From: Halobaculum saliterrae
GTDB lineage: Archaea > Halobacteriota > Halobacteria > Halobacteriales > Haloferacaceae
NCBI RefSeq assembly: GCF_009831625.1
Contig: NZ_WUUS01000002.1
Span: forward strand, 62,001 to 126,000
Direction of reading: 5' to 3'
Length of the DNA stretch: 64,000 nucleotides
Numbering within the stretch: position 1 is the stretch's first letter; every line of letters begins with the position of its first letter. The notes below the pieces were generated by a model, which saw nothing but the letters and a program-made list of their open reading frames with translations, ran no database searches and had not been told where the DNA came from. Shown here one piece after another: positions 41,431 to 56,218 of the stretch. The position numbers and the translations under genes are program-made.

Positions 41431-42465
41431 TCAGCTATCGGCCCACTCCACCACGGTCGCCGCCCACGTGTAGCCGGTACCGGCCGCGAGGAACAGCACC
41501 ACGTCGCCGTCGTCGACGCGGTCGCGGTCGAGTCCTTCCCGGAGTGCGAGCGCCTGGTCGGCGCTCTGGACGTGGCCGTAGTCGTCGAGGTAGTAGCTCT
41601 CGTCCTCGTCGACGCCGAGTTCTCCACACAGGTACTCGTGGAACGATCGCTTCATGTGCGTGAGCGCGAGGAAGTCCACGTCCTCGCGCTCGTACCCCGA
41701 ATCGGCCAGCGCGTCGTCGGCGACCGCGAGGAACGACGGCGCGGACACGTCCGCGAGTCGTTCCTTCATGTCGTCCGGATCCGGGACGGTGAGTGTGTGC
41801 TCGCCCGCCTCGACGGTCTCGCGGCTCGGCGGCCTCCCCGACCCGCCCGCGGGCATCACCACGTCCCGTGAGAAGCTCCCGTCGGTCGTCGCCGCCGACT
41901 CACGGACGACGGCGCGGGTGCGGTCGGCTGCCGGGTCGGCCTCAAGCACCGTCGCGGCCGCGCCCGAGCCGAAGTTGAACATGAAGCTCGCGTCCCCGTC
42001 GCGGTAGTCGACGAGGTCCTCCTCGCGGCTCGCGGTGACCAACAGCGCGCGGTCGATGTCGCCGACGCGGAGCTGTGCGGCCGTGTGACGGATCGCGATC
42101 GGCGCTCCCGCACACAGTGCATACGACTCGTGGGCGTAGGCGTCGTCCGCCCCGAGGCGCTCGGCCACGTCCGCGGCGGCCGACCAAACGACGTGGTCCT
42201 TGTACTCGCTGCCGTGGAACAGGACGAGGTCGAGGTCGTCGGCGTCGACGTCGGCGTCCGCCAGCGCATCCCGCCCGGCGGCGACGCACATGTCCGAGAC
42301 GTGGTCTGCGTCGGGCTCGCAGACGTGCTTCTCGCGCATGCCCATCTTCTCGACCACGACCTCCTCGGGGATCCCGCTGACCTCGGCGATCTCCTCCCCG
42401 GTGAGCACCTCCTCGGGGACGTACGTGCCGAGGCCGGTGAGGCCGACGGTCCGACCCTCAGCCAT
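41431..42465 (-). CDS. KAS III (FabH)-like thiolase-fold enzyme
   Basis: 344 residues. LTGLGTYVPEEVLTGEEIAE is the N-terminal pattern; catalytic Cys118 is in ESYALCAGAP, and His270 is in LALTHMKRSFHEYL. Where FabH has the Asn of its Cys-His-Asn triad (YGNTS) this protein has YGHVQSAD (His298), so it may not decarboxylate malonyl-ACP as FabH does. Haloarchaea lack a normal fatty-acid synthase, so an acyltransferase or HMG-CoA-synthase-like role is more likely. Overlaps livM by 8 bases as the last gene of the transporter operon. Confidence 0.85.
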   Translation of the reverse strand: MAEGRTVGLTGLGTYVPEEVLTGEEIAEVSGIPEEVVVEKMGMREKHVCEPDADHVSDMCVAAGRDALADADVDADDLDLVLFHGSEYKDHVVWSAAADVAERLGADDAYAHESYALCAGAPIAIRHTAAQLRVGDIDRALLVTASREEDLVDYRDGDASFMFNFGSGAAATVLEADPAADRTRAVVRESAATTDGSFSRDVVMPAGGSGRPPSRETVEAGEHTLTVPDPDDMKERLADVSAPSFLAVADDALADSGYEREDVDFLALTHMKRSFHEYLCGELGVDEDESYYLDDYGHVQSADQALALREGLDRDRVDDGDVVLFLAAGTGYTWAATVVEWADS

Positions 42466-43855
42466 CGAACCACCGCCGCACTCGCCGCGGGACGGCCTTC
42501 GCCAGCGTCCCGTCCATCCGGTCGCGGGCGGTGCCGAGCAGGCCGTTGGGCACGTACAACACGAACAGCACGAACAGCAGGCCGACGTACAGCGCGGCGT
42601 GCCCGTTCAGGAACGTGTCGATCGCTTCGGCGACTGTGAGCCCGTTGTAGAGTTCCGTCGCGAGCGTGGCGTCGCCGACGTTCGCGCGGAGGTACGGGAG
42701 CAGGCCGCCGCCCCCTCCCTCCTTGGAGAGGAACTCCCGGACGCTGGCGTCGAACAGCTCTCCGTACAGCGGCCCGGCGAGCGTGCCGAAGCCGCCGATG
42801 ATCGACACCAGCAGCGCGTCGCCGGCGACGAGGAAGTAGAAGCCGTTCTCGGGCGTCACCGAGCGCCGGAACCCGACGAACAGCGCGCCTGCGATCCCCG
42901 CGAAGAATCCGGAGGCGACGAACGCGCCGAGCTTGTACGCGTAGGTGTTGTAGCCGATCGCCCGGGCGCGCTCCTCGTTCTCCCGGATCGCTATCAGCGT
43001 CCGGCCGAACGGCGAGTGGACGAGCCGCTGCATCGCGAGGTAACAGACGAGCACGACCGCGCCGATCGCGTAGAACGACACCTCGGTCGGCGACAGGTTG
43101 ATGAAGCCGAACAGCCCCTCGATCGAGTCGCCGGTCAGCTGCCCGATTGCCACGTTCAGGCCGTCGACGCCGGGGACGCCGATCCGGAACCCCTCCAGCG
43201 TCCCCGTCACGGCCACGCCGTCGCGGGGCGCCGAGGAGACGAAGTCCCAGTCGCGGACGAACACGTACAGCACCTGCGAGAAACCGAGCGTGATCATCGC
43301 GAAGTAGACGCCCGACAGTCGGAACGACACGCTGCCGATGGCGAGCGCCAGCACCGCGGCGGCGACCCCCGCGAGGACGAGCAGCAGCATGAACGGCGTC
43401 TCCGGGCCGAGCGCCGGCAGCTTCCCGTTGGCTCCGAGCGCGACGACGTACGCGCCGGTGCCGTAGAACGCCGCGTGGCCGAAAGAGAGGTAGCCGGTGT
43501 AGCCGCTGATGAAGTCGAACGACATCGCGAACAGCCCGAAGAACAGCACGACGACGAGCGTCTCGATCCGCGGGAGCACCGCGACGACCTCTGTCGACAG
43601 GCCGGAGTCCGCGAGCAGGGCGTAGACGCCGGGGTACAGCGCGAACGCGAGCACCACGACGAGGTGAACGAGGTGATCCTCCGCGTACTGCCGGTACCAC
43701 GCGGCCTCAGTCCCGCCGCCGTACCGCTCGATCGCGGCCGCGGCGTCGCCGCCGGCCTCGGTGTCTGCCGTCGCGTCTACGGCTTCCCCGCCGTCGCAGA
43801 TAGCCGTCTCGGATGAACCGGCCCCGTCGACGGCGCCGTCGTCGGGGGAGCTAAT
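42458..43855 (-). CDS. livM: Branched-chain-amino-acid-type ABC permease (second subunit)
   Basis: 465 residues if translated from ATT 43855-43853, 399 from the first conventional start GTG 43657. Eight or more hydrophobic helices; the permease loop SPFGRTLIAIRENEERARAI and ISGYTGYLSFGHAAFYGTGA are LivM signatures. The 66 codons before 43657 are stop-free, have nearly all G/C third bases, and contain AAWYRQYAEDHLVHLVVVL, which completes the first helix. They contain no ATG, GTG or TTG. The only candidate is ATT overlapping livH's TAG (ATTAG), as in the ATGA overlaps elsewhere in this operon. Confidence 0.85.
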   Translation of the reverse strand: MSSPDDGAVDGAGSSETAICDGGEAVDATADTEAGGDAAAAIERYGGGTEAAWYRQYAEDHLVHLVVVLAFALYPGVYALLADSGLSTEVVAVLPRIETLVVVLFFGLFAMSFDFISGYTGYLSFGHAAFYGTGAYVVALGANGKLPALGPETPFMLLLVLAGVAAAVLALAIGSVSFRLSGVYFAMITLGFSQVLYVFVRDWDFVSSAPRDGVAVTGTLEGFRIGVPGVDGLNVAIGQLTGDSIEGLFGFINLSPTEVSFYAIGAVVLVCYLAMQRLVHSPFGRTLIAIRENEERARAIGYNTYAYKLGAFVASGFFAGIAGALFVGFRRSVTPENGFYFLVAGDALLVSIIGGFGTLAGPLYGELFDASVREFLSKEGGGGGLLPYLRANVGDATLATELYNGLTVAEAIDTFLNGHAALYVGLLFVLFVLYVPNGLLGTARDRMDGTLAKAVPRRVRRWFDG

Positions 43856-44906
43856 GGCCCCCCACCTCCGAGACGCCGTACAGCCCCTGCGGCTTCACGA
43901 TCAGCGTGATCACGAGCACGAGGAACACCACCATCTCCGGCAGGCCGGTGAAGTCGACGAAGTTCTGGAACCACCACGTCATCGACGAGTCGACGAGGCC
44001 GACGATCAGCGCCGCCACGACGGTGCCGCGGAACGTCCCGAGGCCGCCGACGATCACGACGACGAACGCCGGCAGCAGCGTCTCCGCGGCCAGCGGCACC
44101 GACGCGCCCCACGAGGGGTCCCACGCAAGCAGCACGCCGGCGGCCCCGGCGATGCCGGTCCCGAGCGCGAACACGACGGTGAACACGCGGTTCACGTCGA
44201 CGCCAAGCGCCGACAGCATCTCGCTGTCCTCGCCGCCGGCGCGCACGTACAGCCCGTACCGCGTCCGGGTGAGGAACAGGTGCACCCCGACGACGGTCGC
44301 GACACCGAACAGGATCTGGAACAGCTCCAGCCCGCTCACGGAGACCCCGGCGGCGCCGACCGACTCGGCGAGAACGACCGGCTTCGTCCCGAGCACGTCC
44401 TGCCACACGGTCGTCGGCTGCAGGCCGTAGAACAGGACGACGATGCGCGCCAGTTCGTCGAGGACCAGCGTCACGCCGAAGGTAAGCAGGATCTGATACA
44501 GCGGCGGCCGGTCGTAGATCGGTCTGACGAGTCCGACTTCTATCCCACCACCTAACGCTGCAAGCGCGCCGAAGGCGACGACGACGGCGACGCCGAACGC
44601 CAGCAGTCGCCCGACCCCGCCGGTCGATTGTGCGACCGCAACTACGAGTACCAGCCCGCCGAGGTACGCGCCGAGCATCGTCAGTGAACCGTGGGCGAAG
44701 TTGAGGACTCCCATCAGACCGAACACGAGCGTCAGCCCGGCGGCGATCATGACGTAGAGGCTCGCCTCAGCGATCCCGCGGAGGATCACGTCCACGAGCG
44801 TCGTCGGCGAGAGGAACTCGATCAACGCGTCCGCGAACTGCAGCGGGATCGACGGTCCGGCGGGTGCAAGCGATGCCAGCGACGCGAGCGCGACACCGGC
44901 GCTCAT
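43851..44906 (-). CDS. livH: Branched-chain-amino-acid-type ABC permease (first subunit)
   Basis: 351 residues from ATG 44906, which overlaps livF's stop (ATGA). About eight hydrophobic helices; GLTLVFGLMGVLNFAHGSLT is the LivH N-terminal signature and the C-terminal loop GGLGTFRGTVVAALIVGLVD is typical. With livM it forms the membrane channel. Substrate is probably a carboxylic acid or amino acid; the ABC class cannot be resolved by sequence. Confidence 0.92.
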   Translation of the reverse strand: MSAGVALASLASLAPAGPSIPLQFADALIEFLSPTTLVDVILRGIAEASLYVMIAAGLTLVFGLMGVLNFAHGSLTMLGAYLGGLVLVVAVAQSTGGVGRLLAFGVAVVVAFGALAALGGGIEVGLVRPIYDRPPLYQILLTFGVTLVLDELARIVVLFYGLQPTTVWQDVLGTKPVVLAESVGAAGVSVSGLELFQILFGVATVVGVHLFLTRTRYGLYVRAGGEDSEMLSALGVDVNRVFTVVFALGTGIAGAAGVLLAWDPSWGASVPLAAETLLPAFVVVIVGGLGTFRGTVVAALIVGLVDSSMTWWFQNFVDFTGLPEMVVFLVLVITLIVKPQGLYGVSEVGGH

Positions 44907-45721
44907 GCCGAGAGGTACCTCCGGAGTCGTTCGCCCTCGGCGCTGACGGCGTCGGTGTCGCCCTCGTCGACGACGGTGCCGTGGTCGAGCACGTAGAACC
45001 GGTCGGCCACGTCGAGCGCGAGCGGGAGGTTCTGTTCGACCAGCAGCATAGTCGTGTCGGAGGCCGCCTCGGTCAGCGCCTCCGCGACCGCCTCTACGAT
45101 GAGCGGCGCCAGCCCCTCGCTGGGCTCGTCCACGAGCAGCAGGTCGTTGTCGCCGACGAGTCCGCGGGCGATCGAGAGCATCTGCTGTTGGCCGCCCGAG
45201 AGGTCTCCCGCCTTCGCCTCGCGCCGCTCCCGGAGGTCCGGGAACGTCTCGAACGCGAGCTCCAACGCCGCGTCGGCGTCGTCGGCGTCCGGGACGGCCA
45301 CGCGGACGTTCTCCTCGACGGTGAGCTGTCCGAACATCCGCCTGTCCTCCGGGATCCACCCGAGACCGCGGGCGGCGACCTCGTGCGTGTCGCGGCCGAC
45401 CAACTCCTCGCCGCGGTAGCGGACCGATCCCTCGCGGGGAGGCGTCAGCTGCAGCACCGAGCGCAGCGTCGTCGTCTTGCCGACGCCGTTTCGACCCATC
45501 AGCGCGACCACCTCGCCCTCGTACACGTCGAGGTCGACGCCCTCGAGCACGTGGCTGTCGCCGTAGTACGTCTCGACGCCCGACAGCGAGAGCAGTGGCT
45601 CGTCGCGTTCCTCGCTCGATGGCCCGTCGCCCGACGACTGGTCGGCGGCGCTCTCGCCGGTGTCCTGTGACGGATCGACGCTCGCATCAGAATTCGAATC
45701 CGGACCCGCGTCCGAGCTCAC
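44903..45721 (-). CDS. livF: ABC transporter ATP-binding protein
   Basis: 272 residues. Walker A MGRNGVGKTTT, signature DLSGGQQQMLSIAR, Walker B LLLVDEPSEGLAP, and IPEDRRMFGQLTVEENV, characteristic of LivF-type subunits. A disordered acidic N-terminal ~35 residues (DSSSDGPSSEE-like) precedes it. Overlaps livG by 4 bases. Confidence 0.94.
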   Translation of the reverse strand: MSSDAGPDSNSDASVDPSQDTGESAADQSSGDGPSSEERDEPLLSLSGVETYYGDSHVLEGVDLDVYEGEVVALMGRNGVGKTTTLRSVLQLTPPREGSVRYRGEELVGRDTHEVAARGLGWIPEDRRMFGQLTVEENVRVAVPDADDADAALELAFETFPDLRERREAKAGDLSGGQQQMLSIARGLVGDNDLLLVDEPSEGLAPLIVEAVAEALTEAASDTTMLLVEQNLPLALDVADRFYVLDHGTVVDEGDTDAVSAEGERLRRYLSA

Positions 45722-46602
45722 GCCGGTTCACCTCCGTCGTTCGAGCCGGTGGACGCGTCGGACGACGCGCCGTCGTCGGCGCTCCCGGGCTCGTACCCGC
45801 CGAGGTACGCCCGCTGGACCGCGGGGTCGTCCCTGACGGCCGCGGGCTCGTCGTCAGCGATCACCGCGCCCTGATTCAACACGACGACACGGTCGGACAC
45901 CTCCATCACGATGTCCATGTTGTGCTCGACGAGCAGTACGGCGTGGTCGGTGGCGACGTCCTCGATCAGGTCGACGACGCGGTCGACGCTCTCCGAGGAG
46001 ACGCCGGCGTTCGGTTCGTCGAGGAGGAGGACGTCCGGGTCGCCCGCGAGCGCGACGCCGACCTCCAGCTGACGCTTGGCTCCGTGCGACAGCGCGCTGG
46101 CGGGCTCGTCGGCGCGATCGGCGAGGTCGACACGATCGAGGATGGCGTACGCCTCCTCGATGTACTCCTCGAGCTGCCCGGCGTTTCGCCAGAAGTTCAT
46201 CCCGTCGCCGCCGGCGGCCTGCGCGGCGACACGGACGTTCTCCAGCACGGTCGAGTTGGGGAACACATTGGTCACCTGGTACGACCGGTGGACCCCCAGC
46301 GAGGCGACCTCGTGCGGCTCCGCGCCGGTGATGTCGCGCCAACCGTCGGCGCCGTTCCCGTCGTCCCCCGTGCTCGCACCCCCTTCGCCGTCGTCGCCCT
46401 CGACGCGCCCCGCTCCCGTTCGGAGCTCGACGGATCCCTCGGTGGGTTCCAGCACCCCCGTGAGGAGGTTGAAGAACGTCGTCTTTCCGGCGCCGTTGGG
46501 GCCGATCAGCGAGCACAGCTCGTCGCTCTCGAGCGCGAAGTCGACGTCGTCGACCGCGGTGAGCCCGCCGAACCGCTTCGTGAGACCGCTCGTGCGGAGC
46601 AT
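45718..46602 (-). CDS. livG: ABC transporter ATP-binding protein
   Basis: 294 residues. Walker A GPNGAGKTTFFNLLTG, ABC signature region ALSHGAKRQLEVG (SHGAKR is LivG-type), Walker B LLLDEPNAGVSSES, and VLENVRVAAQ. A ~40-residue acidic insert (DDGEGGASTGDDGNG) follows the Walker A region. The start is adjacent to the livJ stop (46603). Confidence 0.94.
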   Translation of the reverse strand: MLRTSGLTKRFGGLTAVDDVDFALESDELCSLIGPNGAGKTTFFNLLTGVLEPTEGSVELRTGAGRVEGDDGEGGASTGDDGNGADGWRDITGAEPHEVASLGVHRSYQVTNVFPNSTVLENVRVAAQAAGGDGMNFWRNAGQLEEYIEEAYAILDRVDLADRADEPASALSHGAKRQLEVGVALAGDPDVLLLDEPNAGVSSESVDRVVDLIEDVATDHAVLLVEHNMDIVMEVSDRVVVLNQGAVIADDEPAAVRDDPAVQRAYLGGYEPGSADDGASSDASTGSNDGGEPA

Positions 46603-48033
46603 CTACAGCGAGCAGTTCATGCTGTCGCTGTCGGCCGGGATCGTCGTCTCGTCGGCCGAGATGCGCGCGACGGGGTCGCTCGGCTGGATCGGCGCGCCCC
46701 ACGAATCGCTCCACTCGTCGGCAGTCGGAGCGACGTTCGCGACGGTCATCTCCGAACGCGCCTGGTTGTTGTACTCCTGGAAGGTGTACGCGTCGGCGCC
46801 CTTCGGCGTGTCCGCGACGGTCATCCCGCGCAGCGCCGACGCGATGTCGGCGCCCTCGGTGGAGCCGCTCTCCTCGACCGCCTGCACGATGGCGGAGGCG
46901 GCGGTGAAGGTTCCGGAGGTGAACAGGTCCGGAACCTTCCCATAAGCGTTCACGTACCCCTCGACGAACGCGGAGTTGATCTCGTTGTCGTACTGGTTCC
47001 AGTGGTAGCGCGTCGTGAACGGGCCGATGCCGGCGCCGTCCAGCTTCTCCTGGGTGAGCGGCTCGCCCAGTTGGTTCTGGAGGAGTCCGCCGACGACGTT
47101 GTTGGTGATCTCGGTCGCGAAGCCGCCGAACACCGTGTAGTCGTAGTCGCCGTTGAGGTACGACGTGAACAGCGCCGGGAGCGTGGCGACGGTGAAGCCG
47201 CCGACGATCCCCTCGGCGCCCGCCTCGGCGGCGTTGTCGAGTAGGCCCTCCCACTCGCTGTACCCCTGCGGAACGAAGCGCTTGCCGACGATCTCGACGC
47301 CCTCGGCGGTGAGGACCTCCTCGTAGTTGTTGACGACGGCGCGGCCGAACGAGTAGTCGGCGCCGAACAGGTACACCCGCGAGACGTCCGACTCCCGGGC
47401 GACGTACCGGCCGCCCGAACGCGCGTCCATCGCGGTGTTCTCCGAGGCACGGAACACCTGCTCCCCGCAGGCTTCCGACTCGGAGGTGACGGAGGCGGAC
47501 GCCGCGGGACCGATCATCAGCGGGACGCCCGCCTGCTTGGCGACCGTCTGGCTCACGCGCGTGGCCGCCCCCGAGGAGGTGAGCCCGAACAGCATGTCCA
47601 CGTCCTCGTCGGTGACGAGGTTCGTCGCGAGCGACTGCGCGGTGTCAGCCGAGAACTGCGTGTCGCGGATCAGGAGTTCGTAGTCCACGTCGCCGACCGT
47701 GACCGTCTGGGTCCCCGTCTCCGCGGACACCTGCGGCTCCCCGCCCGCCTTGTACGCCATCCCGGAGGAGAACCCCCACAGGGCCTGCTGCCCGTAGTAC
47801 TGGAGGTCCCCGGAGATGGGCTGGAGCACGCCGATCTTCACCGTTCCCGACGCTCCGCTCGAACCGTCTGTTGTCGTACCGTCCATGTCTTCGCTGGCTT
47901 CAGTGTCCGTCTCCATGGTATCCCCGTCGGTCTCTGTTCCGTCGCCGTTACCGCCCGAACACCCGGCGAGGCCGGCGATACCGGTCGCTCCCAGCGCCGC
48001 CAGCGTTCGCCGCCGTGTGATACGCTCACTCAT
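46603..48033 (-). CDS. livJ: ABC transporter substrate-binding lipoprotein
   Basis: 476 residues from ATG 48033. The Tat signal ITRRRTLAALGATGIAG precedes the lipobox LAGC (Cys25) and a Thr/Asp-rich linker. The mature part is a LivJ/HAAT type-I periplasmic-binding fold (GVLQPISGDLQYYGQQALWG, GLTSSGAATRVSQTVAKQAG, VPLMIGPAASASV). It captures the transporter's substrate outside the cell. First gene of the operon; the 14-bp element at 48072-48085 lies 39 nt upstream. Confidence 0.93.
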   Translation of the reverse strand: MSERITRRRTLAALGATGIAGLAGCSGGNGDGTETDGDTMETDTEASEDMDGTTTDGSSGASGTVKIGVLQPISGDLQYYGQQALWGFSSGMAYKAGGEPQVSAETGTQTVTVGDVDYELLIRDTQFSADTAQSLATNLVTDEDVDMLFGLTSSGAATRVSQTVAKQAGVPLMIGPAASASVTSESEACGEQVFRASENTAMDARSGGRYVARESDVSRVYLFGADYSFGRAVVNNYEEVLTAEGVEIVGKRFVPQGYSEWEGLLDNAAEAGAEGIVGGFTVATLPALFTSYLNGDYDYTVFGGFATEITNNVVGGLLQNQLGEPLTQEKLDGAGIGPFTTRYHWNQYDNEINSAFVEGYVNAYGKVPDLFTSGTFTAASAIVQAVEESGSTEGADIASALRGMTVADTPKGADAYTFQEYNNQARSEMTVANVAPTADEWSDSWGAPIQPSDPVARISADETTIPADSDSMNCSL

Positions 48034-48071
48034 ACACTGCGATACTATGAGGTATCCGGCAAGAACTGCGT

Positions 48072-48085
48072 GGTTAACATGTGAA
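48072..48085 (-). promoter_or_regulatory. 14-bp shared promoter element upstream of livJ
   Basis: TTCACATGTTAACC on the minus strand, with the near edge 39 nt before ATG 48033. Identical in all 14 bases to 52334-52347. Contains the palindrome AACATGTT overlapping a GTTAAC TATA-like core, so it is probably an operator/promoter element. Confidence 0.6.
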
Positions 48086-48253
48086 CGAGCGGGCGCTCGC
48101 ACACACTGACTTCGACAGGTACGGGTCCATTGGTCCGGTCGGTGGCTCACAACGCTCGATCGGTCCCATGAGTGGCCCTCACACAGACGCCCCTGCCCCG
48201 CGTCGAAGACCATATCTCGGTCCGGACAGCATGACTTCATCAATGACGCGTCC

Positions 48254-48889
48254 ATGATACTGGTACTCGACAACGCGGTCGACGGCGGCTACATGGCCGG
48301 CGAGATCGTACACTTCCTTCCCGAAGCCCGCGCCTACAACTACCCCAACGAGGACGGCGACCCGAACCTCGATGATGTTGACGGCGTCGTGATCGGTGGG
48401 AGCGGCGCCGGCGTCTACGACGAACCGGACCAACCGTGGATCGCCGATCAGAAGCGGTTGGCGCGTCGTCTCGTCGAGGAGGGAGTGCCGACGCTCGGCA
48501 TCTGCTTCGGCCACCAGATCCTGAACGCCGCGCTCGGCGGGGCGGTCGAGGACAGCGGGACGACTCGTCTCCACCTCCGTGACGCCGAGTTCGACGACGA
48601 ACCCCTGTTCAACGGGGTCGAACCGACCGTGCCCGTCCTCCACTCCGACGTGGTGACCGAACTCGGCGACGGGATGGAGGTCATCGGGCGCGCGGACTAC
48701 TACGAGTACTTCGCCACCCGACACCGCGACAGTCCCGTCTGGTCCGTCCAGTACCACCCCGAGTTCACTCCCCGGATCGTCGACGAGTACGACGGTTGGG
48801 AGGAGTCCGCCCGCTCCTTCGAGGAGTCGACCGCCACTCGAACGCTCGCGAACTTCGCGGACCTCGTGGAGTCGTACGCGAACGACTGA
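48254..48889 (+). CDS. Class I glutamine amidotransferase-like protein
   Basis: 211 residues. GVVIGGSGAGVYDEP is the oxyanion strand; nucleophile Cys84 is in LGICFGHQILNAALGG; His168 and Glu170 are in WSVQYHPEF. The triad is complete. It resembles the separate GuaA glutaminase subunit of archaeal GMP synthases but also other amidotransferases; no partner synthetase gene is nearby. Stands alone, divergent from livJ. Confidence 0.85.
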   Translation: MILVLDNAVDGGYMAGEIVHFLPEARAYNYPNEDGDPNLDDVDGVVIGGSGAGVYDEPDQPWIADQKRLARRLVEEGVPTLGICFGHQILNAALGGAVEDSGTTRLHLRDAEFDDEPLFNGVEPTVPVLHSDVVTELGDGMEVIGRADYYEYFATRHRDSPVWSVQYHPEFTPRIVDEYDGWEESARSFEESTATRTLANFADLVESYAND

Positions 48890-48961
48890 GTCCGGAACAC
48901 ACACCGAGTCACGGGGTGTCCGTACGCGACGGGGGATCGGTCGACGGGATCGCTGGACAGG

Positions 48962-49666
48962 TCACTCCTCCAACTCCCCCATCGCGTCGACGACGCGCTG
49001 GAGCATCTTCCGTTGCCCGCGCCGGAGGTTCTTCGAGACGGCGGGCTTGGACACGTCGAACTCCTCCGCGAGTGTGCCCAGCGTGGCCGAACGTGGGCTC
49101 TCGAAGTACCCCTCGGTGGCGGCCGTCTCCAGCGTCTCGCGTTCGACGTCCGAGAGGTCCTTACAGCCCTCGATGAGCGTCATCGCGGCGCCGGCGTTCT
49201 GGATGAAGCTCTGTAGCTCCGGCAGCTCCGGCTCATCGCGTTCGAGCACCTCGTACTCGTTGTCGCGGTCGAGCCGGGAGAGCGTCCCGTCGGCCTCCCC
49301 GCGGTCGTCGAAGCCCACGTGCCACAGCTCCGAGCCGTCGGCGATGTAGAAGGGACCGGTGATGTAGCCGCCGCCGTCGCGGACGGTCGACATCGCGGCC
49401 GTCTCGTCGATGACGGTCCGGATGTGGCCGACGCCACCCGTCTTCGAGATGAGCGAGTACTCCCGGAGGCCGTCGTGTTCGCGCAGTTCCGTCAACCCCC
49501 GGCCGAGCGACTCCCGGTCGTCGCCCTCGACGACCATCCGCGTCTCCAGTGACTCGGTCGCCGTATCGAACTCCCAGTGCACCGCCGAGAACGCGAGGTC
49601 GTGCTCCTCGGTGGCGTGGATGAACGGGCAGTCGTACTGCTCCATGTCCAGGGTGACATCGATCAT
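48962..49666 (-). CDS. Bat-like HTH_10 transcriptional regulator
   Basis: 234 residues. The N-terminal ~170 residues (VTLDMEQYDCPFIHATEEHD) form the haloarchaeal sensor domain of bacterio-opsin-activator-like proteins. The C-terminal HTH_10 runs LSDVERETLETAATEGYFES, ATLGTLAEEFDVSKPAVSK and RRGQRKMLQRV. It is positioned between the ABC-transporter operon and the acyl-CoA synthetase operon, so it is the natural candidate to act at the shared 14-bp element, though this is not shown. Confidence 0.9.
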   Translation of the reverse strand: MIDVTLDMEQYDCPFIHATEEHDLAFSAVHWEFDTATESLETRMVVEGDDRESLGRGLTELREHDGLREYSLISKTGGVGHIRTVIDETAAMSTVRDGGGYITGPFYIADGSELWHVGFDDRGEADGTLSRLDRDNEYEVLERDEPELPELQSFIQNAGAAMTLIEGCKDLSDVERETLETAATEGYFESPRSATLGTLAEEFDVSKPAVSKNLRRGQRKMLQRVVDAMGELEE

Positions 49667-49822
49667 GGTGCTCCCTCCGATCGGTGCACGATTGGCCGAT
49701 ACCTACATAATTGTTTGTGTTGGTGGCGACCGCCGAATACTCCGGGCGCCGAGTTCGCCGATCGCGATTCCGGGGGCGACGACTGTTCAGTCGACGGAGC
49801 GCCCTCTCCCGCCACTGAGCGA

Positions 49823-51493
49823 TCACCGCTGTCCGCCGAACCGTTCGCGCACCGCCTCTCGGTCGATCTTCGACGGTCCGGAGTGGGGGAACTCCTCGAC
49901 GAACGCGAGATGACGGGGATGTTTGAAGCCCGCCAGCCGACCGTCGAGAAACGCTCGCAGTTCGGTCAGCGTGAGCGAGTCGTCCCCCTGCACGACGGCT
50001 TTCCCGACGGTGCCCCAGGTGTCGTCGGGCACGCCGATGACGACCGCCTCCCTGACCTTCGGGTGGTCGGTGAGCGCGTTCTCGATCTCGGCGGGGAAGA
50101 CGTTCTCGCCGCCGCTGACGTACATGTTCTTCTTGCGCCCCTCGATGTGGTAGTAGCCGTCGTCGTCGACGCGCGCGAGATCGCCCGTCGAGACCCATCC
50201 GTCGCCGAAGGTCTCGGCAGTCTCCGCGGGCGCGTTCCAGTAGCGGTCGGCCGCCGCGGGGCTCGACAGTTCGAGCTCGCCCACCGCTCCCCGATCGACG
50301 GGTTCGCCGTCGGCGTCGACGATCCGCGCGGAGACGTGTGGTGCGGGCACGCCGACGGCGTCCGCCTTCTCGCGGGGCCAGTCGTCCGGCATCGCGAAGT
50401 TGTTCGGGCCACACTCGGTGAGACCGTACCCCTGTGAGAGGTCCACGCCGCGGTCCCACCACGTCTCCAGCACCGACCGCCGGCAGGGGCCGCCGCCGGA
50501 CTTGGCGAACCGGAGCGACGAGAGGTCCGTGTCGGCCCACGCGTCGTGCTCGGACATCATCCGCAGGACCGCCGGCACCGCCACGAGCACGGTCGCCTCG
50601 CGGTCGTCGACGACGTCGAGGACTCGCCCGGGGTCGAACTCCCGCGCGATGACGACGGTGCCGCCGACGTGGAACAGCGGAACGGTGAGGACGTTCCACC
50701 CGCCGGTGTGGAACAGCGGGAACGGCATCGGCGTCACATCGTCCCCGCGCAGGTTCCACGCGGCGATCGTCGTCATCGAGTTCCAGTACACCGCGCGGTG
50801 GGGGATCACCGTCTGCTTCGGCGTCCCGGTCGACCCGCCGGTGTGAAGGAACAGGTGTGGATCCGACAGCGACACCTCGGGTCGATCGAGGTCGCCTTCC
50901 CCCGGGCACGCGTCGGCCTCGGTTGCGCCGTTCTCGGTCGTGTCCCTTCCGGTCCCGACCCGCGACCTGGCCTCCTCGAACGGTTCGCCGTCGAGGTCGT
51001 CGGCCGCAGTCTCGACGGCGCCCGTGTCGTCGCCGACGACGAACACCCGCGTGTCGTCGATATCGACGTCGGCGTCGCTGAGGGCGTCGGTAACGAGATC
51101 GGCCGATCCCGGTTCGACGACGACCGCAGTCGGGTCGGTGTCGGCGACGAGTTCGGACACCTCCGGGGGCGCCAGCCGGTGCGACAGCGGCGCGAGCACG
51201 GCGCCGATCTTCCCCGTGGCGAAGAACAGGTCAACGAGCGCCGGTCGGTTCCGCGAGAGCGTCACCACACGGTCGCCCTTCCCCACGTCCGCAGAGCGCA
51301 GCAGCCGGGCCGTCCGGACCGCCCGGTCGTTTAGCTCGGCGTACGTGTACTCCCGGCCGGAGCTCCCGTCGACGAGCCCGACGCGTTCGGGCGACAGCGC
51401 CGCGCGACGACCCGACCAGTCGCCGACCCAGTCCGGACCCGCCGGTCGCGCGCCCCCTGTGGTTCCGGACTGGCGCCCGGATCCCTCAGACAT
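49823..51493 (-). CDS. Acyl-CoA synthetase (AMP-forming)
   Basis: 556 residues, full length. The P-loop LHTGGSTGTPKQTVIPH, A5 region LSQGYGLTECGPNNF, A7/A8 hinge STGDLARVDDDGYYHIEGRK and the C-terminal lysine in GPSKIDREAVRERF are intact. It activates a carboxylic acid to its CoA thioester using ATP; fatty or aromatic acid specificity is undetermined. Starts 8 bases inside the hydrolase gene's end, so co-transcribed from the 52.3-kb promoter region. Confidence 0.92.
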   Translation of the reverse strand: MSEGSGRQSGTTGGARPAGPDWVGDWSGRRAALSPERVGLVDGSSGREYTYAELNDRAVRTARLLRSADVGKGDRVVTLSRNRPALVDLFFATGKIGAVLAPLSHRLAPPEVSELVADTDPTAVVVEPGSADLVTDALSDADVDIDDTRVFVVGDDTGAVETAADDLDGEPFEEARSRVGTGRDTTENGATEADACPGEGDLDRPEVSLSDPHLFLHTGGSTGTPKQTVIPHRAVYWNSMTTIAAWNLRGDDVTPMPFPLFHTGGWNVLTVPLFHVGGTVVIAREFDPGRVLDVVDDREATVLVAVPAVLRMMSEHDAWADTDLSSLRFAKSGGGPCRRSVLETWWDRGVDLSQGYGLTECGPNNFAMPDDWPREKADAVGVPAPHVSARIVDADGEPVDRGAVGELELSSPAAADRYWNAPAETAETFGDGWVSTGDLARVDDDGYYHIEGRKKNMYVSGGENVFPAEIENALTDHPKVREAVVIGVPDDTWGTVGKAVVQGDDSLTLTELRAFLDGRLAGFKHPRHLAFVEEFPHSGPSKIDREAVRERFGGQR

Positions 51494-52295
51494 CGTCGAG
51501 GAACGCGGTAAGTCGGTCGTTCACGCGCTCGGACTCCTCGATGAAGAACAGGTGTGAGCCTCCCTCGACGAACTCGGCCTCGGCGTCGGGGATCGCCTCG
51601 GCGAGCAGTTCGCCGTTCCCGACGGGAAGCACCCGATCGTCGGTGCCGTGGGCGACGAGCGTCGGGACCGAGACCGCGCCGAGTTCATCGCTGGCGTCGA
51701 ACGCCTCCACGGCTGCACCTTGTGCCTCCCGCGCGCTCGGCGGCGCGTCCGACTCCAGCCGCCAGTCGACGATCCGCTCGACGAGATCCGGGTTGTCCTC
51801 GAAGAAGCCGTCGCTGACGGCGGGCGCCATCTTGTACCGGATCGCCTCGCGCTCGTCGGCGTCGTCGGGAACGGAGAACATCCGCTCGAGCGTGGACTCG
51901 GGCGTCGGGATCGCGTCGGGACCGCCCGGAGAGGTACACAACAGGGCGAGCGACCGCGCCCGGTCGTACGTCAGTGCGTACCGTTGGGCGACCATTCCTC
52001 CCATTGACGCGCCGACGACGTGCGCCGCGTCGACCCCGGCGTCGACGAGCACGGCCTCCAGATCGCCGGCCAGTTGCCCTATCGTGTACGGCCCCTCCGG
52101 CACGCCCGACTCGCCGGTCCCGCGATTGTCCCACAGCACCACGTGGTACGACTCCGCGAGCGCGTCGGCCTGCCAGTTCCACATCCAGCGGCCGTAGCCG
52201 AGCCCCTCACACAGGACGACCGTCTCCGCCTCGGCGGGGTCGCGGCCGCGCTCCTCGTAGGCGATCGCGACGCCGTCGTGATCCGCCGTTTGCAT
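51486..52295 (-). CDS. Alpha/beta hydrolase
   Basis: 269 residues from ATG 52295 (an ATG 30 bases earlier is weaker). Nucleophile motif GASMGG at about residue 96, HGTDDRVLP with the acid Asp and GSHLFFIEE with the catalytic His. It resembles 3-oxoadipate enol-lactonase-type hydrolases and similar esterases. Head of the hydrolase-CoA ligase operon; the 14-bp element lies 39 nt before the ATG. Confidence 0.88.
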   Translation of the reverse strand: MQTADHDGVAIAYEERGRDPAEAETVVLCEGLGYGRWMWNWQADALAESYHVVLWDNRGTGESGVPEGPYTIGQLAGDLEAVLVDAGVDAAHVVGASMGGMVAQRYALTYDRARSLALLCTSPGGPDAIPTPESTLERMFSVPDDADEREAIRYKMAPAVSDGFFEDNPDLVERIVDWRLESDAPPSAREAQGAAVEAFDASDELGAVSVPTLVAHGTDDRVLPVGNGELLAEAIPDAEAEFVEGGSHLFFIEESERVNDRLTAFLDDV

Positions 52296-52333
52296 GGAGG
52301 ATGCCTGTCCACGGGCCACCTTCAAGCGGGCGC

Positions 52334-52347
52334 TTCACATGTTAACC
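52334..52347. promoter_or_regulatory. 14-bp shared promoter element between hydrolase and maoC genes
   Basis: TTCACATGTTAACC on the plus strand. It lies 37 nt before ATG 52384 (MaoC-like gene) and, read in reverse, 39 nt before ATG 52295 (hydrolase). Identical to 48072-48085. Confidence 0.6.
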
Positions 52348-52383
52348 CCCGAGGCTTTCGGTCGCGCCCCCACCGATACGGGC

Positions 52384-52782
52384 ATGGCAGTCGCGACTGT
52401 CGGCGACGAGGCGACGGCGAGCATCGACGTGACGACCGAGACGATCGACGCGTACGCCGACCTCACCGGCGACGAGAACCCGATCCATCTCGACGAGGCG
52501 TACGCGAGCGAGACGATGTTCCAGGGGCGGATCGCCCACGGAATGCTCGGCGCCGGGGTCGTTAGCGCCGCGCTCGCATCGCTCCCGGGCGACATCGTCT
52601 ACCTCGATCAGACCTGTTCGTTCGAGGCGCCCGTCCGTCCGGGTGACACGATCGAGGCCCGCGCGACCGTTCGCGAGGACCTCGGCGACGACCGACTGCG
52701 GGTCGAGACCGTCGCGTCCGTCGGCGGCGAATCCGTCATCGAGGGGGAAGCGACGGTGCTGTCGCTCCCACACGATCAGTGA
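52384..52782 (+). CDS. MaoC-family hydratase
   Basis: 132 residues from ATG 52384. A hot-dog fold with the R-hydratase signature GDENPIHLDEAYASETMFQG then RIAHGMLGAGVVSA, including the catalytic Asp and His. Expected to hydrate enoyl-CoA in acid degradation. Transcribed divergently from the hydrolase/acyl-CoA synthetase operon and shares the 14-bp element. Confidence 0.9.
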   Translation: MAVATVGDEATASIDVTTETIDAYADLTGDENPIHLDEAYASETMFQGRIAHGMLGAGVVSAALASLPGDIVYLDQTCSFEAPVRPGDTIEARATVREDLGDDRLRVETVASVGGESVIEGEATVLSLPHDQ

Positions 52783-55281: not shown

Positions 55282-55561
55282 GAGTGCTGTCGCTGGTTGT
55301 GGTCTCGGTCGATCCCACATGCGGGAACCGGCAGACCGAACGGACCTTCGACCGACCCCACGGATCTATCATCGAGTTCACATCACATGAACGCTGACTA
55401 TCGACATCCAACGGGTTTATCGTGGAGTCGTCGGCTCGGTGGGGAGGGTTCGTCGTGTTGTTCGGTCCAGGTACGTTCCTCGTTGTGGCGCCTTCGCATC
55501 CGAAACGTGGCCGGCACTGGGTGATTATTTGAGTCGCTGTGGCGAACTCACGTCCGCGCGA

Positions 55562-56218
55562 ATGAGCGTCCACGCGACGGTGAGAGTCGCGCCCCGCGAT
55601 TTCGTCCTCGGTCGGACGCTGACCGTCGCGGGCGACGCGCGGATATCGCTCGAACCGGTGGTGCCGCTGGGGAACGGACTCGCACCGTACCTCACGGTGG
55701 CCGACGACGACCCGGCGACGGTGTGTGATCTCGTCGCCGCGGAGCCGACCGTCGTCGAGACCGAGGCGGTTCACCGGGGAGACGACGAGTGGATTCTGTG
55801 TGTCCGTTGGGGGGAACACCGTTCGTCGTTGCTCGCTGCGCTCTCCGACGCGGACGCCGCTTGTCTCGGAGCGGTCGCGACGCATGGAACGTGGCACCTC
55901 ACGCTCCGGTTTCACAGCCACGAGAGGTTGGCCGACTGCTATCACCGCTGTCTCGATCGGGGCGTTCGACCGACCGTGGAACGGGTTCGAGACGACGACG
56001 GGAGGGACGCACTCGAGTCTCGTGCACTCACGACGGCACAGCGCGAGGCGCTCGCGACCGCATACGAGTCGGGGTACTTCGCGGTGCCGCGGGAGGTGAC
56101 GCTCGTCGGGCTCGCCGACCGTCTCGGGATCTCCGACACCGCGGCCTCACAGCGGATCCGACGCGGGGTGGAGAACCTGCTCGAGGACGCTCTCGCCGCC
56201 GGTACGCTCGACCGGTAA
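55562..56218 (+). CDS. HTH_10 Bat-like transcriptional regulator
   Basis: 218 residues from ATG 55562. The N-terminal ~140-residue sensor-like region contains RVAPRDFVLGRTLTVAGDAR. The C-terminal HTH_10 reads LTTAQREALATAYESGYFAV, PREVTLVGLADRLGISDTAA, SQRIRRGVENLLEDALA. A paralogue in plan of 48962-49666. Target unknown. Confidence 0.85.
   Translation: MSVHATVRVAPRDFVLGRTLTVAGDARISLEPVVPLGNGLAPYLTVADDDPATVCDLVAAEPTVVETEAVHRGDDEWILCVRWGEHRSSLLAALSDADAACLGAVATHGTWHLTLRFHSHERLADCYHRCLDRGVRPTVERVRDDDGRDALESRALTTAQREALATAYESGYFAVPREVTLVGLADRLGISDTAASQRIRRGVENLLEDALAAGTLDR

Follow-up and report, generated by a model that had tools for sequence, protein, structure and literature searches.

A conserved inverted repeat at the promoters of an acyl-CoA gene cluster in Halobacteria and its candidate HTH_10 regulator

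A 14-bp element, TTCACATGTTAACC, lies at matched distances upstream of three transcription units in the 64,000-nucleotide stretch of the Halobaculum saliterrae genome analysed here (the window). We propose, with a probability of about three in four, that this element is the operator of a pathway-specific regulon, and that the HTH_10 regulator encoded at 48962-49666 reads the sites and activates all three units. We infer three points: the 48962 product as the reader, activation as its effect, and an acid or CoA ester of the pathway as the signal. The relevant features of the window are as follows.

41431-42465, minus strand: KAS III-like 3-oxoacyl synthase, final gene of the uptake operon (NF005308 above cut-off)
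42458-43657, minus strand: livM-type permease
43851-44762, minus strand: livH-type permease (start codon provisional)
44903-45721, minus strand: livF-type ABC ATPase (PF00005)
45718-46602, minus strand: livG-type ABC ATPase (PF00005, PF12399)
46603-48033, minus strand: livJ, lipoprotein substrate-binding protein of a branched-chain-type ABC transporter, gene 1 of the uptake operon (PF13458)
48060-48065, minus strand: probable weak TATA-like box TTCTTG, about −27 to −32 of livJ, in the conserved block 3′ of the site
48072-48087, minus strand: putative operator 1, 16-bp imperfect inverted repeat CGTTCACATGTTAACC that includes the 14-mer, centred at −46 of the livJ start
48962-49666, minus strand: candidate regulator, 234 aa, HVO_2525_N (PF24279) and HTH_10 (PF04967)
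49823-51493, minus strand: acyl-CoA synthetase (AMP-binding), overlapping the hydrolase gene
51486-52295, minus strand: alpha/beta hydrolase, gene 1 of the hydrolase/acyl-CoA synthetase unit (ATG 52295)
52320-52326, minus strand: probable weak TATA-like box CTTGAAG, −25 to −31 of the hydrolase gene, in a conserved TTGA block
52332-52347, plus strand: putative operator 2, GCTTCACATGTTAACC, common to the divergent hydrolase and MaoC promoters and centred at −44 from each start
52354-52359, plus strand: probable weak TATA-like box GCTTTC, −25 to −30 of the MaoC gene
52384-52782, plus strand: MaoC-type hydratase, divergent unit (PF01575)

Exact copies of TTCACATGTTAACC occupy 48072-48085 (minus strand) and 52334-52347 (plus strand) of the window, i.e. 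two copies for the three start codons of livJ, the alpha/beta hydrolase and MaoC, placed before livJ and between the two divergent genes as the initial annotation had described. With start codons taken from the sequence and backed by homologues, the element is separated from the ATG by 38 nt at livJ (ATG 48033), 38 nt at the hydrolase (ATG 52295) and 36 nt at MaoC (ATG 52384); the earlier count of 39, 39 and 37 nt refers to the same gaps, taken one step further. The description of the three units, and of the HTH_10 gene between the two sites, was likewise correct. The palindromic core previously given as AACATGTT is absent from the site, where the core reads CACATGTT / AACATGTG: the perfect palindrome is ACATGT, embedded in the imperfect inverted repeat TTCACATGTTAA, and the form found class-wide is the 16-bp inverted repeat GGTTnA-N4-TnAACC. 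Within the whole 3.78 Mb genome the two copies in the window are the only exact ones, against a chance expectation from base composition of ~0.004 per genome.

Two observations concern the genes themselves. The KAS III-like protein (41431-42465, minus strand) matches NF005308 (3-oxoacyl-ACP synthase) despite its location in the uptake operon, and a class-I glutamine amidotransferase gene (48254-48889, plus strand) is an insertion that separates the regulator from livJ in only some Halobaculum genomes. A carboxylate is a plausible pathway substrate, as it fits a CoA ligase together with a branched-chain-type transporter.

The initial annotation had proposed a genome search as a check on the element. 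Rather than being common and unrelated to promoters, the exact 14-mer was found 32 times in 18 of 148 genomes of the family (~0.5 copies expected from composition; 0 for the reversed control), and all 32 copies precede the starts of livJ or hydrolase/MaoC orthologues by ~42-54 bp (66 for one, by extrapolation). The sites do not always adjoin the regulator gene. In G067 the livJ site is ~277 kb away from it, in G054 the site is on a different contig and in G020 on a different replicon or contig, and in G035 and G009 the hydrolase/MaoC and livJ sites are at separate loci. The degenerate repeat GGTTnA-N4-TnAACC by itself matches 69 of the 148 whole genomes, with a substantial reversed control, and so lacks specificity; information comes only from its centred form or from its promoter context. 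A third candidate in the H. saliterrae genome (C6:179776 / 179434) falls within sulfatase/glycosyltransferase coding sequence and was taken as chance, and C13:81969 and C2:393049 were rejected as sites, there being no large ORF start at a fitting distance. Another Halobaculum genome (L092, G093:C3:18000-37900) carries the whole cluster in a second copy, in which KAS, livM, livH and the regulator match only as split pieces and are apparently broken; both of its 14-mers are intact.

Conservation of the site was then assessed across class Halobacteria, using 79 named loci together with the family loci, where the same cluster recurs. The 90 bp before each start codon were scored for GGTTnA-N4-TnAACC, with a threshold of at least 8/10. 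This score was reached by 63/77 livJ, 49/59 hydrolase and 39/39 MaoC promoters, with repeat centres mostly at −43 to −50 from the start codons, and by hardly any internal operon gene (ACS 0/62, KAS 0/52, livG 0/75, livF 0/79, livM 2/75). Misplaced starts or fragments explain part of the 14/77 livJ promoters that scored below 8. In the aligned promoters both arms of the repeat reach up to 2.0 bits, the pattern of a dyad operator, and so do central positions that lie outside the score, while the 40 bp 5′ of the site hold ~0-0.5 bits (up to 0.9 at a few MaoC positions). A second conserved block coincides with the TATA position and reads TTGA at the hydrolase promoters (up to 2.0 bits) and TTTTTGCC-like at livJ. 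The hydrolase gene of Haloarcula and its relatives is located 3′ of the liv operon and has a decayed site of its own or none, as would be expected if the site marks independently transcribed units. Some livJ promoters (L106 and L109 of Haladaptatus; L133 and L136 of Haloglomus) carry, besides the repeat in its normal position, another of the same type ~32-40 bp farther upstream (GGTTGATATGTGAACC, GGTTCACGTGTGAACC).

In Haloferax volcanii ~72% of protein-coding transcripts are leaderless (PMC4983044), so start codons approximate transcription starts and the site would be placed just upstream of the BRE/TATA region. With transcription starts estimated in this way, centres at −43 to −50 have the position of an upstream activating site. 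According to the model, a homodimer of the HTH_10 regulator would bind GGTTnA-N4-TnAACC, with one dimer before livJ and another in the centre of the divergent hydrolase/MaoC promoter region, where both directions would be served by a single symmetrical site. The promoters are very probably leaderless, with poor TATA boxes and the site adjoining the BRE/TATA region; for this reason the bound dimer most likely recruits TFB/TBP and activates. The N-terminal tandem ferredoxin-like domain may sense a substrate or CoA-ester signal, which would trigger joint activation of the ABC transporter/KAS III operon, the hydrolase/acyl-CoA synthetase operon and MaoC. The earlier proposal of a promoter element shared by one regulon is supported by the element's class-wide conservation, fixed spacing and diverged flanks, and by the co-inheritance and paralogues of the regulator described below; co-regulation and binding are best regarded as probable.

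The candidate regulator was previously called Bat-like, a description that holds for its HTH_10 domain (PF04967, residues 171-222; 53.8 bits against a cut-off of 23.1) and fails for the remainder. Its N-terminus (residues 4-137) is HVO_2525_N (PF24279; 66.1 bits against a cut-off of 27), and a domain search of the 48962-49666 product found no BAT (PF15915), PAS or GAF domain, which separates it from Bat. A second HTH_10 protein that does carry the BAT domain (PF15915) is encoded at 55439-56218 (plus strand), 3 kb from MaoC, and was linked to no repeat. For the N-domain of the candidate, structure prediction gives a well-modelled tandem ferredoxin-like fold, with block pLDDT values mostly of 85-93; the model of the HTH part is poor. 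Ta1207 can be superposed on the HVO_2525_N model across 138 residues (Z 10.6, rmsd 3.4), as can ferredoxin-like folds; comparisons with this model gave no clear hint of a ligand, and Foldseek TM-scores were low. Only 6/106 of the regulator's own promoters score at least 8, which rules out autoregulation as a general feature. A search of the non-subscription literature returned no studies of HVO_2525 or of an HTH_10 acyl-CoA regulon.

The site, the operons and the regulator are inherited together. Among the 148 family genomes, KAS III orthologues occur in 33, all of which contain the regulator (33/33), and hydrolase orthologues (at least 57% identity) in 35. A regulator of at least 56% identity is present in 34 of these 35; the remaining one, G044, has a version at 52% identity. 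All 18 site-bearing genomes have the regulator, and the site is found in 0 of the 114 genomes that lack a regulator of at least 56% identity (Fisher p ~4e-14, uncorrected for phylogeny). Concordant losses of site and regulator within genera were seen in G087 and G108 (both of the window's genus), and in G040, G063, G075, G084, G066 and G077, and the regulator is kept where it is unlinked to an operon (G067, G020, G035, G009, G054). This constant co-travel links site, operons and regulator; because the three are always co-inherited, no genome separates a need for this regulator from membership of this operon, and co-inheritance alone does not prove the identity of the reader.

Paralogues of the regulator, 46-58% identical to it, adjoin different acyl-CoA clusters, where the same type of repeat (including GGTATACATGTCAACC, GGTTCACATGTGAACG and CGTTCACATGTGAACC) is found at −43 to −47 before SDR, acyl-CoA synthetase, livJ-like and MaoC genes. 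A paralogue accompanied by a second acyl-CoA/ABC cluster (SDR, acyl-CoA synthetase, livJ, MaoC) was observed at L068, L072, L075, L076 and L159-L170, and this cluster is probably a second regulon of the same family. Where the recognition helix of an orthologue is SKPAVSKNLRR, nearly every site has an ACATGT centre; in the lineage with STAAVSKNMRR, mainly Halorubrum, all three promoters have an altered centre but keep the arms. Haloparvum is an exception, combining the STAAVSKNM helix with an ACATGT hydrolase site. This covariation of helix and centre is suggestive, being essentially one evolutionary event, largely in Halorubrum, with one exception. We lean slightly towards a more general proposal, in which HVO_2525-type HTH_10 proteins would be class-wide activators of acyl-CoA pathways, all reading GGTTnA-N4-TnAACC at about −44 of leaderless promoters, with paralogues and lineages kept apart by the centre (4-6 bp) and by a small number of recognition-helix residues (SKPAVSKNLRR versus STAAVSKNMRR).

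Several alternative models could account for the element. The same regulator might act at the same sites mainly as a repressor that is freed by an inducer: one site can block access to a promoter, and the HTH_10-type NarO has been reported to repress the dms operon (PMC10062603). However, centres at −43 to −50 lie upstream of BRE/TATA, neither over nor downstream of it, and the TATA-like boxes TTCTTG, TTGAAG and CTTTC are poor in comparison with the haloarchaeal TTWT (PMC4983044), which suits activator-dependent promoters; we consider repression unlikely, although a realistic possibility. Somewhat more doubtful is that a transcription factor encoded elsewhere reads the operator while the neighbouring HTH_10 gene controls other targets. 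In favour of such a factor, the regulator of one genus is distant from the operons; that genus nevertheless keeps the regulator and its sites persist, the operon is never without the regulator in any genome, and the clusters beside the regulator's paralogues carry the repeat too.

The remaining explanations dispense with a dedicated regulator or with selection. Proximity to basal elements and fixed spacing would also be expected of an extended basal promoter motif (a BRE/TATA variant), but the restriction of the 14-mer to the promoters of one pathway across 148 whole genomes, and its form as an inverted repeat followed by a distinct block at the TATA position, make this very improbable. It is hardly credible that the two copies, although exactly identical over 14 bp and within 4.3 kb of each other, arose by recent duplication or recombination of promoter DNA, since their flanks differ and each site is separately conserved across the class, in many genera and with its own flank history. 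We retain the operator of an activator-controlled regulon as the preferred reading.

Few archaeal activators have both operator and regulon known. The analysis yields a defined operator, its candidate regulator and three targets. They are conserved throughout class Halobacteria and can be tested directly in genetically tractable species such as Haloarcula or Halorubrum. It also gives the PF24279 regulator family a probable role. The substrate-binding protein, the KAS III-like enzyme, the hydrolase, the CoA ligase and MaoC would belong to a single pathway, and inducer screening could be used to seek its substrate.

The GvpE upstream activating sequence (UAS) lies beside the BRE, a closeness that is essential (PMC4390858), and resembles the window site in adjoining the BRE, in having two half-sites 4 nt apart and in the joint control of divergent promoters (PMC4390858). 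However, GvpE is leucine-zipper-like whereas the window regulator is of the HTH_10 type, and GvpE uses two overlapping UASs for the two directions where the window has one symmetrical site, apparently for both. The Bat/bop system of Halobacterium and the proposed system have in common an HTH_10 DNA-binding domain, an activator site upstream of TATA and few co-regulated operons. The bop UAS contains AACTAGTT, whose centre differs from that of the window site. Of the PAS/PAC, GAF and associated domains that make up Bat besides its HTH_10 (PMC2253796, PMC11218638), the window regulator showed none. Denitrification promoters of Haloferax mediterranei carry the palindrome CGAACATGTTCG, mutation of which lowers nor/nosZ promoter activity (PMC10062603), and the HTH_10-type proteins NarO and DmsR are discussed as the likely type of reader (PMC11218638). 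H. volcanii NarO has been reported to be a repressor as well as an activator (PMC10062603), so the sign of regulation here could differ. The palindrome CGAACATGTTCG and the window site differ in their arms (CGA...TCG versus GGTTn...nAACC) and in position before the ATG (66-79 nt versus ~44). The NarO/DmsR group has an oxygen-sensing cysteine cluster. It serves a different pathway, controlling anaerobic respiration genes, whereas the window regulator has PF24279 as its N-terminal domain and transport and acyl-CoA genes as its putative targets. Nevertheless, NarO and DmsR, which are of the 'bacterioopsin activator-like' type (PMC11218638, PMC10062603), and the window regulator are all HTH_10 proteins without PAS/GAF, their genes lie in or near the cluster, and in both cases a short palindrome with an ACATGT centre recurs at several promoters of one pathway.
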